This document shows, one piece after another, positions 38,314 through 42,101 of a DNA stretch of 64,000 nucleotides. How positions within the stretch are numbered: position 1 is the stretch's first letter; each line of letters opens with the position of its first letter. Position numbers and translations under genes: made by a program. This stretch comes from Frigoribacterium sp. Leaf263 (GTDB taxonomy: Bacteria; Actinomycetota; Actinomycetes; Actinomycetales; Microbacteriaceae). Location of the stretch: NCBI RefSeq assembly GCF_001422285.1, contig NZ_LMMO01000007.1, positions 611-64,610 on the forward strand. Reading direction: 5' to 3'. The notes under the pieces were generated by a model, which did no database searches, was not told the DNA's origin, and worked only from the letters and a program-made list of their open reading frames with translations.

Positions 38314-38608
38314 GACTCCACTCTGCGCCGGGGCGGCACCGCGCCGCTCATCTCACGGCGCGGAGGACGGCCCCCACCCTCGGAGTCCACCACCCTCCGC
38401 CCACCGAAGGCCATCCGCCGCTCTGCGCTGTGGCCCGCTGGCTGGTACCCACCACGCACCACCGGCCACCCGCCACCCGCCACCTACCCCGGGCTGCACC
38501 GCACCCGCCCCCGCCCCCTGCACCCACTGCGGGCCGGGCGGCACCCGCCACCACCACCCACCGGGCCAGGCGGCGCCCGCCCCCGCCGGCCGCTGCCAGA
38601 CTGAGGGG
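38314..38608. other. Divergent spacer between nnrE and hydrolase
   Basis: 295 bp, strongly C-biased on the plus strand (CACCCGCC-type runs) between divergent genes. It must hold both promoters, but no good -35/-10 pair stands out, and no gene is evident. Confidence 0.4.
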
Positions 38609-39406
38609 ATGCGTGCTCAGGCGAACAACCCCGTCGACGGAACCGAGATCGCCTACGAGGTGGGCGGTGACGGCCCGCCGCTCGTGCTCGTGCACGGCTC
38701 GGGTCTCTCGCGCGGCACCTGGCGCGGGCTCGGGTACCTCCGGGACCTGCAGCGCGACTTCACGGTCGTGGCGCTCGACATGCGCGGCCACGGCAAGAGC
38801 GGCAAGCCGCACGACGCCGATTCGTACAGCATGGACCTGCACCGCGGCGACATCGAGGCCGTTCTCGAGGCGACGGGGCTGGCCCCGGCTCACTACGTCG
38901 GCTACTCGTTCGGGGCGCGCATCGGACTCTCGATCGCCGCGCACACCCCGGGTCTGCTCCGTACCTTGACGACCGTCGGGGGCAGCTGGGCTCCGATGAA
39001 CGGCAACATCGGCGCGACCTTCGCGCCCGACTGGCACGAGGCGCTGACGACGGGTGGCATGGCCCGCTTCGTCGAGCGGTGGGGCGAGACGATCGGCCGC
39101 CCGATCGACCCGGAGACCCGTCTCGCCTTCATGCACGACGATCCGGAGGCGCTCGCCGCCTTCTTCACCGCGGCCGAGACCGGGGGCGGCCTCACCGTCG
39201 ACCAGCTCGACTCGGTGACCGTCCCGACCCTGCTGCTCGCCGGCACGCGCGACGTCGACCGGCACCGCGAATCTCAGGAGGCCGCGCGCCGCATGCCCGC
39301 CGCCGTCTTCTACTCGCTCGTCGGCCAGGACCACGCGTCGTCGCTGCTGCCCGTCGATCAGGTGACGGACCTGCTCCGCACGTTCCTCGAGACCGTCGAC
39401 GCCTGA
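38609..39406 (+). CDS. Alpha/beta hydrolase (265 aa)
   Basis: Hydrolase core: LVLVHGSGLSRGTWRGLGYL, ALDMRGHGKSGKPHD, nucleophile YVGYSFGARIGLS, acid LAGTRDVDRHRES, His GQDHASSLLP. The length and MRGHGKS block fit the epoxide-hydrolase, haloperoxidase and esterase group. ATG 38609 has GAGGGG just upstream. A tandem repeat array follows the stop. Confidence 0.9.
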   Translation: MRAQANNPVDGTEIAYEVGGDGPPLVLVHGSGLSRGTWRGLGYLRDLQRDFTVVALDMRGHGKSGKPHDADSYSMDLHRGDIEAVLEATGLAPAHYVGYSFGARIGLSIAAHTPGLLRTLTTVGGSWAPMNGNIGATFAPDWHEALTTGGMARFVERWGETIGRPIDPETRLAFMHDDPEALAAFFTAAETGGGLTVDQLDSVTVPTLLLAGTRDVDRHRESQEAARRMPAAVFYSLVGQDHASSLLPVDQVTDLLRTFLETVDA

Positions 39407-39430
39407 GGGCGCCGCGCCGGCCCGTGCGGA

Positions 39431-39738
39431 CCGAGGAGACGCAGGGCGGCCGGCCGGGAGGGCCCGCGCGCTCGAGCTCCGGCTCGAACGAGCCGAGGAG
39501 GCGCGGGTCGACGGACCAGGGATGCCAGCGCGCTCGAGCCCCGGCCCGAGCAGACCGAGGAGACGCAGGGCGTCCGACCGGGAAGGCCCGCACGCGAGCC
39601 CCGGCCCGAGCGGACCGAGGAGACGCAGGGCGTCCGACCGGGAAGGCCCGCGCGCTCGAGCTCCGGCTCGAACGAGCCGAGGAGGCGCGGGTCGACCGAC
39701 GAGGAAGGCGTGCGCGCTCGGGGCCGCGGGCTGCGAGA
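39431..39738. repeat. Five-copy ~62-bp tandem repeat carrying the dispersed motif
   Basis: The block CCGAGGAGRCGCRGGGCG begins at 39431, 39493, 39555, 39615 and 39677 (spacing 62, 62, 60, 62). Each unit continues GACCGGGAAGGCCCGCGCG... and ends in a GAGCTCCGGCTCGAACGAG or GAGCCCCGGCCCGAGC segment. Copies 3 and 4 are nearly identical over 60 bp. The array fills the 341-bp space between the hydrolase stop and the amine oxidase start. Confidence 0.95.
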
Positions 39739-39747
39739 ATCGGGAGC

Positions 39748-41355
39748 ATGGGCATCAGTCGTCGCGCGTTCCTGACGGGCACGCTCTCGGGCGCCGCCGT
39801 GCTCGTGCTCGCCGCGTGCACGACCGACGCGCCCTCTCCGGCGCCGTCGACGGGCGGGCCGACCCCGACGCCGACCGAGGCCCCGACCGCGCCGGCCGGT
39901 GTCGCCGCGGCGGGGTTCCTCCGCAGCAGCTGGGCCGACGACGCCCTGGCCGGAGGGTCGTCGAGCTACCTGGCGACCGGCTCGACGGTGACCGACCGGC
40001 TGACGCTCGCCGGCTCGCTCGACGATCGGCTCTTCTTCGCCGGCGAGGCCGTCGCCGACCGGAACGCGGGCACGGTCTACGGTGCGAGGGCCTCGGGCTT
40101 CGACGTCGCCGACCAGGTCGCGGCCGTCGCCGCCGAGGGTGAGCGCATCGCCGTCATCGGGGCGGGGATCGCCGGTGCGACCGCCGCTCGGGCCCTGGCC
40201 GACCGTGGCTTCGACGTCGTCGTGGTCGAGGCGCGCGACCGCATCGGCGGTCGCATCCACACGGTCGCCGACGACTCGTGGCCGTTCCCGGTCGAGCTGG
40301 GCGTGTCGACGCTGTTCGGCGACGCCTCGCCCGCCCTCGTCGGCGCGCTGACCCTGGCCGGGGTGGACACCGTCCGAGTCGACGGCGCAGGCGTCGCCGG
40401 CGGCTCGACCGACACCTCCGACACCTCCGACACCCCCGGCTCCACCGCCTTCCCCGGCTCCGGCACCGCGCAGGTCGCGGCCCGCACCGCCGACGGCACG
40501 ACCACCGATCTGACCGGCGCACTCGCGGCCGCCGTGACCACCGCCTCCGCGTGGGCTGCCGGCACCGACGGCGTCGACAGCGGCGACGGCACGGGCGGCG
40601 GCCTCGGCACGTCGGCGCGGCAGGTCTTCGCCGAGTCGGGCGCCGACCGGGTCTCGAGCACGCCCGACGCGACGGGCGTGTCCGACGCCGAGCGCGTGGC
40701 GTTCCTGCTCGACACCGTCCTGCCCGCCCGGTTCGGCGCCGAGGCGGGCGACCTGGCGATGAGCCAGATCGGCGACGATCTCCTCCCCGTCGATGCGACC
40801 CTCGTCACGGGCGGCTTCGAGTCGTTCGTCACGGGGCTCCTGGACGGACTCGACGTGCTGCGCGGCAGCACCGTGGTCAGCGTCCAGTACGGCGATCAGG
40901 GGGTCGGCCTGCGACTCGCGACGGGCGAGTCGCTCTCGGCGGACCGCGTCGTGTCGACGATGCCCCTCGGGGTGCTCAAGCGAGGGGCGGTCGAGTTCGA
41001 TCCCGCTCTGCCCGCCGCGTACTCGTCGGCGATCGAGTCGCTCGGGATGGGCGACCAGGAGGTCCTCTGGCTGCGCTTCGATCGGGCGTTCTGGTCGACG
41101 GAGGCCACCGTCTGGGCCGTGCTCGACGACACCGCGAGCGATCGCCTGTTCGTCAACCTCATGCCGTCGACGGGCGAGCCGATCCTGGTGTCGCTGACGG
41201 GCGGCGACGCCGGTCGCGCGGCTGCGGCCCTCGACGACGACGAGGCCGTCACCGCGGCCCTCGCGTCGCTCGAGCCCTACCTCGACCTCGTGTCGGCCTC
41301 GCCGACCCCGTCCGGCGAGCCGACCGTCGACCCCTCGGCGACCCCCGGCTCCTGA
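39748..41355 (+). CDS. Circularly permuted flavin amine oxidase, Tat-exported lipoprotein (535 aa)
   Basis: Signal with Tat motif SRRAFL and lipobox LAAC (Cys24), so it is probably folded before export and membrane-anchored. After a Pro/Thr linker come residues 57-125: W62, GSSSYL (70-75), RLFFAGEA (94-101), GTVYGARASG (108-117). In ordinary amine oxidases this block is the C-terminus. The N-terminal FAD Rossmann motif VIGAGIAG (136-143) and DRIGGRIH (164-171) follow only here, then the substrate domain to about 515. The C-terminus ends ASLEPYLDLV plus a Pro/Ser tail, exactly where the missing block should be. GGGAGC precedes ATG 39748. Substrate amine unknown. Confidence 0.85.
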   Translation: MGISRRAFLTGTLSGAAVLVLAACTTDAPSPAPSTGGPTPTPTEAPTAPAGVAAAGFLRSSWADDALAGGSSSYLATGSTVTDRLTLAGSLDDRLFFAGEAVADRNAGTVYGARASGFDVADQVAAVAAEGERIAVIGAGIAGATAARALADRGFDVVVVEARDRIGGRIHTVADDSWPFPVELGVSTLFGDASPALVGALTLAGVDTVRVDGAGVAGGSTDTSDTSDTPGSTAFPGSGTAQVAARTADGTTTDLTGALAAAVTTASAWAAGTDGVDSGDGTGGGLGTSARQVFAESGADRVSSTPDATGVSDAERVAFLLDTVLPARFGAEAGDLAMSQIGDDLLPVDATLVTGGFESFVTGLLDGLDVLRGSTVVSVQYGDQGVGLRLATGESLSADRVVSTMPLGVLKRGAVEFDPALPAAYSSAIESLGMGDQEVLWLRFDRAFWSTEATVWAVLDDTASDRLFVNLMPSTGEPILVSLTGGDAGRAAAALDDDEAVTAALASLEPYLDLVSASPTPSGEPTVDPSATPGS

Positions 41356-42101
41356 CGCGTGGCGACCGCCAGGTCTCGAGGACCGCGGCGACGCCTGGAC
41401 GACCCTCGCCGCGCCTCCGGGGAGAGCCCCGCCCCCGCCCTGATCGCGGGAGTCCGAGGAGGCGCGCCCGTCACCGCCGGACGATGCCGCGGACGCAGAT
41501 GGCTCAGCCCGACGAGGGCCACCGTCACCCCGATGATCGTGCCGATCGCGATGCCGTTGTAGAGCACGAACTCGTCGGGCCAGCGCACCTGGGCCGGGTC
41601 GAGGAAGAAGTACGGGTACCAGCCGACCCGCGCGCCCCGCCAGATCGTGAACAGCCCCCAGACGACGGGGAACGGCAGGGCCGCGAGCACGAGGCTCCAT
41701 CGGACCCTCGTGCGCCCGGGTGCGAAGATCCAGTCGACGAGCACGAACGTGGACAGATAGAAGTGCAGCACCTGGCTCGACCAGGGGACGCCGATCGTGT
41801 AGTTGTGACTCGCCGACTCGATCACGATGACCCCGTAGACGAGGCCCGACACGATCACGTACGTCGTCACGAGCGCGTGCAGCGAGGCGAACCAGCGCGG
41901 CTCGGGCACTCCCCGCAGCATGAGGATGCCCGACGCGGTCAGCACGACGACGTTCGCGATGTTGCTCTGCTGGGTGAAGTAGCTGAAGTAGTTCACGGTG
42001 CTGAACGTGCTGAAGCCGAGAACGTAGACGAAGTACGAGACGAGGGCCGATGACCCGGCGGCGGCGGCGAGCAGCCGGAGAACGCCCACGAGTCGTCGCA
42101 C
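41277..42101 (-). CDS. Pr6Pr-family membrane protein (274 aa)
   Basis: Six helices with the actinobacterial Pr6Pr pattern: NYFSYFTQQSNIANVVVLTASGIL, LHALVTTYVIVSGLVYGVIV, VLHFYLSTFVLVDWIFAPGR, FTIWRGARVGWYPYFFLDP. The last about 65 residues are Arg/Pro/Gly-rich, unlike the membrane part, and overlap the convergent amine oxidase gene by 79 bp; no earlier in-frame stop exists. Function unknown. Confidence 0.85.
   Translation of the reverse strand: MRRLVGVLRLLAAAAGSSALVSYFVYVLGFSTFSTVNYFSYFTQQSNIANVVVLTASGILMLRGVPEPRWFASLHALVTTYVIVSGLVYGVIVIESASHNYTIGVPWSSQVLHFYLSTFVLVDWIFAPGRTRVRWSLVLAALPFPVVWGLFTIWRGARVGWYPYFFLDPAQVRWPDEFVLYNGIAIGTIIGVTVALVGLSHLRPRHRPAVTGAPPRTPAIRAGAGLSPEARRGSSRRRRGPRDLAVATRQEPGVAEGSTVGSPDGVGEADTRSR

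Follow-up and report, generated by a model that had tools for sequence, protein, structure and literature searches.

We analysed a stretch of 64,000 nucleotides from the genome of Frigoribacterium sp. Leaf263 (contig NZ_LMMO01000007.1, positions 611 to 64,610 of the forward strand; the whole stretch is called the window here). An open reading frame (ORF) of 535 residues at 39748-41355 on the + strand had been described, from its letters, as a circularly permuted lipoprotein amine oxidase exported by the twin-arginine translocation (Tat) pathway (the original prediction). The coordinates, the strand and the motifs quoted for it were all correct: W62, GSSSYL (70-75), RLFFAGEA (94-101), GTVYGARASG (108-117), VIGAGIAG (136-143) and DRIGGRIH (164-171) are present, and the product ends with ASLEPYLDLV followed by a tail of Pro, Ser and Thr. 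With the Pfam model Amino_oxidase (PF01593), the whole protein scores 176.1 bits against a cut-off of 19.8, which places it in this superfamily. The features of the locus are given in Table 1.

Table 1. Features of the permuted gene and of its convergent neighbour (positions in the window; FAD, flavin adenine dinucleotide; PAO, polyamine oxidase; C-block, the C-terminal block of ordinary flavin amine oxidases)
Feature	Position	Strand	Basis
Whole gene, circularly permuted amine-oxidase-like flavoprotein, 535 aa	39748..41355	+	ORF, Pfam, six-frame profile search
Residues 1-24, putative twin-arginine signal (SRRAFL) ending in a lipobox with Cys24 (LAAC)	39748..39819	+	Sequence; motif kept in the genus
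Residues 25-56, Pro/Thr-rich tether from lipid anchor to fold	39820..39915	+	Sequence, alignment
Residues 57-128, homologue of the FAD-contacting C-terminal end of ordinary flavin amine oxidases (profile 375-442)	39916..40131	+	Profile searches, C-block model
Residues 129-132, new joint between the old C-terminal helix and the old N-terminal strand	40132..40143	+	Near-constant joint length
Residues 133-515, Rossmann FAD motif and remaining amine-oxidase fold (profile 1-367)	40144..41292	+	Pfam, six-frame search, structure alignment
Val439 codon, aligned with the flavin-facing lysine (Lys661 in LSD1, Lys300 in maize PAO)	41062..41064	+	LSD1 match, row alignment
Pro/Ser/Thr-rich C-terminal tail and stop, without a second C-block	41293..41355	+	Sequence, six-frame search, C-block model
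Pr6Pr family membrane protein gene, convergent, overlapping the oxidase gene by 79 bases, conserved neighbour	41277..42101	-	NF038065 and linkage counts

The C-block of this protein lies ahead of the FAD-binding Rossmann motif, and there is none at the end. In a six-frame search of the genome, the Amino_oxidase profile matched twice within one frame, and the match to profile positions 375-442 (E 3.2e-9) lies upstream of that to positions 1-367 (E 5.4e-42); both halves of the profile, the Rossmann and substrate part and the C-terminal block, are present, and the usual linear order, with the C-block last, is not. A paralogue on another contig of the same genome (L037, contig C3) matches profile positions 2-442 in the usual order. 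Among solved structures, the best phmmer match was LSD1 (2hko), with which residues 133-188 and 353-521 are collinear, and residues 60-125 matched LSD1 578-655, directly after the collinear pieces, with a score of 9.3 bits that is weak when taken alone. A control model of the C-block, built from nine normally ordered proteins and no permuted ones, gave 61.9 bits at residues 58-126 and no positive score in any other part of the protein; the best score over 2000 shuffles, of which 1676 gave a score, was 13.8 bits. A second C-block at 39748-41355 was found neither in the six-frame genome search (E up to 0.001) nor with the C-block model on the protein.

We read 58 distinct permuted, 14 normally ordered and 4 undecided ORFs in related genomes (called rows below); three of the permuted rows (L083, L108 and L110) are short, split or cut off. 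The C-block model matched upstream of the core in 58/58 permuted rows and downstream in 0/58, and no ORF with both blocks was present among the permuted, normal and undecided ones. The same order recurs in independent assemblies and thus is not an assembly slip. The circular permutation claimed in the original prediction is therefore strongly supported by the LSD1 match, the six-frame profile search, the related ORFs and the C-block model.

All 15 other genomes of the same genus, among 60 relatives, have the permuted order. The order was read from the ORF in fetched loci only; other genomes were counted by a match to a model of the joint alone (A1, 119 columns). At E 1e-25 or better, this model had a match in 135 of the 398 genomes of the window's family. 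These represent 31 of its 85 genera, and nearly the whole model was covered in 132 of the 135, with partial matches in G401, G394 and G027. The wider genome draws overlap, so that their counts are not additive. Matches were found in 13/189 genomes of the order sample (ten of them from the window's family and three from two others), in 8/247 of the class of G611, in 3/66 of the class of G585 (one normally ordered) and in 9/199 of the class of G566 (one, L121, normally ordered). In the phylum sample 14/396 genomes matched; 11 of them span both halves, five being of the window's family with the window's genome included, and the other three match chiefly the block and are normally ordered. Genome G1002 carries a permuted gene (L111) together with a normally ordered one (L113). 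Other phyla were covered by one scan of genome contigs with a single-protein query that reaches close relatives only, and its three named loci are from Frigoribacterium. Eight plasmid records were returned, none covering 80% of the query in one place and all below 60% identity. No permuted relative was seen on viral contigs, where the block was checked in 8 of 20 loci; at the viral-contig loci L138-L141 the block is last, in the usual order.

The new joint is nearly constant. The spacing from GAxxSG, which closes the block, to GxGxxG, which opens the Rossmann motif, is 18-22 residues in 58/58 permuted rows and exactly 20 in 48 of them, and the joint has 17 residues in five more, lipoprotein-like rows of the window's family whose genomes are small (L159-L163); the joint pattern was not found in L155-L157 and L165. 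In the normal-order rows in which the motif was found (11/14), 9-19 residues separate GAxxSG from the protein end. In this type of FAD fold the FFAGE strand adjoins the first Rossmann strand, and thus joining both gives a normal beta-alpha-beta turn. A first structure model, from a four-row alignment, was useless (mean predicted local distance difference test score (pLDDT) 30.6, predicted template modelling score (pTM) 0.23). For a second model the extra rows of the alignment were fragments of normally ordered relatives from viral contigs, and it predicts a helix at residues 109-127 and a strand at 133-137, with about 5 residues between them. A contribution of both chain ends to the FAD site would be consistent with the known fold and with this partly confident model.

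For the trees, permuted rows were re-ordered before alignment. In a tree with 47 permuted rows, 42 form one clade (support 100/96), and the deep permuted ones are interspersed with normal rows where the forks are weak; this tree, as well as the 61-row tree of lysine state and gene linkage described below, is without the window's own row, which is included in two further trees of 40 and 41 rows. The number of order changes needed is three in the 47-permuted-row tree and four in the other two. A single permuted clade was not rejected by the approximately unbiased (AU) test (p-AU 0.081 for 40 rows and 0.138 for 41 rows). The original prediction suggested that a tandem duplication with loss of the outer parts could have produced the order; an intermediate of this kind with both blocks was looked for and was not seen among the 58 permuted and 14 normal rows.

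The N-terminus reads as a Tat lipoprotein signal, SRRAFL followed by LAAC with Cys24, and it is conserved in the genus; from this motif and its conservation, the twin-arginine lipoprotein of the original prediction is probably correct. A twin arginine with a lipobox was read by eye in about 50 of the 58 permuted rows. In L108, L116 and L118-L120 the twin-arginine signal lacks a lipobox, and in L115 a lipobox is present but no twin arginine. Permuted relatives from two other families of the same order (L155-L157) have no recognisable signal ahead of the block. Some normal-order rows (L086, L087, L093 and L113) are twin-arginine lipoprotein-like too. Export and permutation are thus separable, and if L155-L157 form a cytosolic branch, it would separate the effect of the permutation from that of the anchoring.

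The convergent neighbour belongs to the Pr6Pr family (NF038065 in NCBIfam; 116.5 bits against a cut-off of 30). A Pr6Pr gene lies right behind the permuted gene in 40 of the 58 permuted rows; the frames overlap in 37 and are 2-133 bases apart in three. A Pr6Pr model built from 11 linked copies (A4) matches 344 of the 398 family genomes at 1e-10, and the family is thus common. When the strongest Pr6Pr match per genome was counted, with matches of at least 162 bits considered, it lay within 5 kb of the permuted gene in 124 of the 135 genomes (median 1484 bases, match start to match start). In one further genome it lay about 16 kb off, in two it was on a separate contig of a fragmented assembly, and eight have no match of this strength. 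At 173 bits or more, 126/126 genomes carry the permuted gene. The 11 linked copies are strongly conserved around NFFSYFT, LHF and WYPYFFLD. No convincing relative that would point to a fold or function was found in Pfam or among solved structures in the PDB, the name Pr6Pr occurs in no paper of the literature searched, and we know of no function for the family. The strong genetic linkage points to a partnership between the permuted protein and Pr6Pr.

In LSD1 and polyamine oxidase a lysine bridges through water to flavin N5; the window protein has Val439 in its place. At this column (L083 left out of the active-site counts), all 14 normal-order rows have Lys, and the permuted rows have Lys in 20, Val in 23, Gln in 7, Thr in 3 and Ser, Ala, Arg and a gap in one each. 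The Glu of FFAGE is kept in 57/57 permuted rows and 10/14 normal rows, and the Trp of the moved block in 56/57 permuted rows, with one gap. In the Pr6Pr-linked permuted rows, all from the window's family, the lysine is present in 5/40. The permuted rows without Pr6Pr behind, all outside the family, have Lys in 15 of the 16 with a letter and Arg in the other. Furthermore, L159-L163, of the family and without Pr6Pr in the stretch examined, all keep the lysine; the residue is Thr in L164, where Pr6Pr lies about 16 kb off, and Ala in L166, where it is close by. The rows are related, so that the correspondence of lysine and link is a pattern on the tree and not a set of independent cases. In the 61-row tree a single change accounts for the Pr6Pr link, and four (3-5 over the bootstrap trees) are needed for the lysine state. 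The simplest reading, which is not proven, is that the lysine was lost after the link to Pr6Pr, perhaps more than once. According to PMC3184146, Lys661Ala abolishes LSD1 activity and Lys300Met in maize PAO lowers flavin reduction 1400-fold. Ordinary amine oxidase chemistry is thus doubtful for the window protein because its catalytic lysine is Val439, and since a hallmark residue of the activity is missing, 'amine-oxidase-like flavoprotein' is the best name. As a whole, the permutation and the Tat lipoprotein motif of the original prediction held, and its amine oxidase activity became doubtful.

Directly upstream, on the same strand, lies an alpha/beta hydrolase gene (38591-39406), which is found in the same place in the genus with about 79-94% identity. 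A close match beside the permuted gene was seen in the window's genus only, within the stretches examined, and the hydrolase was rejected as a candidate partner. Between the two genes (39417-39720) is a G+C-rich unit of 62 bases in about 4.9 tandem copies. The gap from the hydrolase end to the oxidase start is only about 70-140 bases in L034 and L036. Short pieces of the array match 40 other places in the genome, and thus the array may hold a dispersed intergenic repeat.

We consider it probable (about 0.7) that the window protein is a natural circular permutant related to the flavin amine oxidases, which is exported through Tat and anchored by a lipid at the outer side of the membrane. The block with which ordinary members end (Trp, a GSYSY-like motif, FFAGE and GAxxSG) now opens the protein, and a joint of nearly constant length connects it to the first Rossmann strand. 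The FFAGE strand, the helix that follows it and the first Rossmann strand may form one continuous beta-alpha-beta unit; the join would thus close a spatially small gap, and the FAD site would be rebuilt within one chain. The anchor would be shifted from the N-terminus of the Rossmann fold, where some normal lipoprotein-like relatives have it, to the boundary between the substrate and FAD domains, and the active site may thereby be turned with respect to the membrane; the original prediction, too, supposed a different face for the anchor. Within the window's family, the protein and the Pr6Pr membrane protein linked to it may act together or share a substrate. Since most of the Pr6Pr-linked rows, including that of the window with Val439, are without the lysine, an FAD-dependent dehydrogenase or a slow, specialised oxidase is more likely than a standard amine oxidase. 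A fuller history can be drawn only tentatively, and we think it rather improbable as a whole: the permutation arose in Actinomycetota, the family built a two-gene system with the Pr6Pr membrane protein, and the lysine was then lost, perhaps repeatedly, with the flavin passing electrons to, or acting on, something supplied by the partner and not oxygen, and the moved anchor placing the active site towards the partner.

Several observations weigh against parts of this interpretation. The second structure model is weak overall (mean pLDDT 53.3, pTM 0.46; residues 61-80 at 42-45), and it is no independent test because in its input alignment C-blocks of normal relatives were already matched to the moved block. 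The best Foldseek match has a TMq of 0.28 and a root-mean-square deviation of 24.3, and the packing of the moved block is a prediction; Foldseek and VIA-align follow chain order and therefore align the moved block to no solved structure, which says nothing against the permutation. As for the lysine, well-supported branches force one change only, the count cannot tell loss from regain, and five Pr6Pr-linked rows keep it. Pr6Pr is not behind the gene in 18/58 permuted rows, all outside the family (0-1224 downstream bases examined), nor in the stretch examined behind the five small-genome family rows L159-L163; the permuted protein thus does not need Pr6Pr as such. Furthermore, the Pr6Pr model was built from linked copies, and the line of 173 bits was set with the list already in view; the next genome in it (G067, 171 bits) is without the permuted gene.

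The most serious alternative concerns the number of origins. The permutation may have arisen several times, since the trees need three or four order changes, 0/200 bootstrap trees put the permuted rows on one side of a branch, and the deep permuted rows intermix with normal-order rows; however, one clade is not rejected, the deep forks are poorly supported, and the whole set has the cut site and joint length in common, so that we regard repeated origin as a real possibility that falls short of being probable. An ordinary oxygen-dependent amine oxidase that tolerates Val439 despite the permutation could be argued from the other recognisable FAD-site motifs, which are kept, and from the lysine in 20 of the 56 permuted rows with a letter, and also in L159-L163. 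The lysine in every normal-order row, and the loss of LSD1 activity and strong slowing of maize PAO upon its replacement (PMC3184146), make this unlikely.

Another arrangement could be a chain swap, in which residues 57-128 complete the FAD site of a neighbouring subunit, as an obligate dimer or as a chain on the membrane. In favour of it, the moved block is short, the N-terminal tether that carries it is flexible, and its packing within one chain is a prediction; however, the few residues between the predicted helix and strand and the near-constant joint suit a local beta-alpha-beta closure better, and we judge the swap slightly less likely still than an ordinary oxidase. An assembly error, a pseudogene or a chance resemblance of the N-terminal block has a negligible chance of being the explanation: nothing at the window speaks for it, the broken or cut-off rows are few and distant (the three named above), the block of L166 shows in two frames, and the conserved order in independent genomes refutes it.

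To our knowledge, natural circular permutations within a much-studied enzyme superfamily are rare. Here the permuted gene is widespread within one bacterial family and also occurs in others, a natural case of an enzyme family re-wired in its chain order. Since normal-order relatives with a like export signal exist, it can be tested directly how chain order affects folding, cofactor loading, Tat export of a folded flavoprotein and the placing of an active site at a membrane. Aligners that follow chain order split such proteins, and other permutants may thus be hidden. Furthermore, the tight linkage provides a functional lead for the Pr6Pr family.

Natural circular permutants are known among DNA methyltransferases and in 1,3-1,4-beta-glucanase (PMC2213659, passages seen), which show the same kind of rearrangement in other folds; these passages name no flavin amine oxidase among the permutants. 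Nor was a permuted flavin amine oxidase found in the literature searched, which consisted of titles and the starts of abstracts and covered few subscription papers, in line with the original prediction, which knew of no described example. The members of PF01593 (LSD1/LSD2, maize polyamine oxidase and monoamine oxidase) share with the window protein the FAD Rossmann, GGR and PLGVL motifs and the block of Trp, GSYSY-like, FFAGE and GAxxSG motifs. Compared with them, the window protein has the last block in front, Val439 in place of the catalytic lysine and a Tat lipoprotein signal. The normal-order relatives L086, L093 and L113 from Actinomycetota resemble the window protein in their twin-arginine signal with a lipobox-like Cys and in a similar core, but unlike it they have the usual order, with the anchor directly ahead of the Rossmann strand, and keep the lysine.
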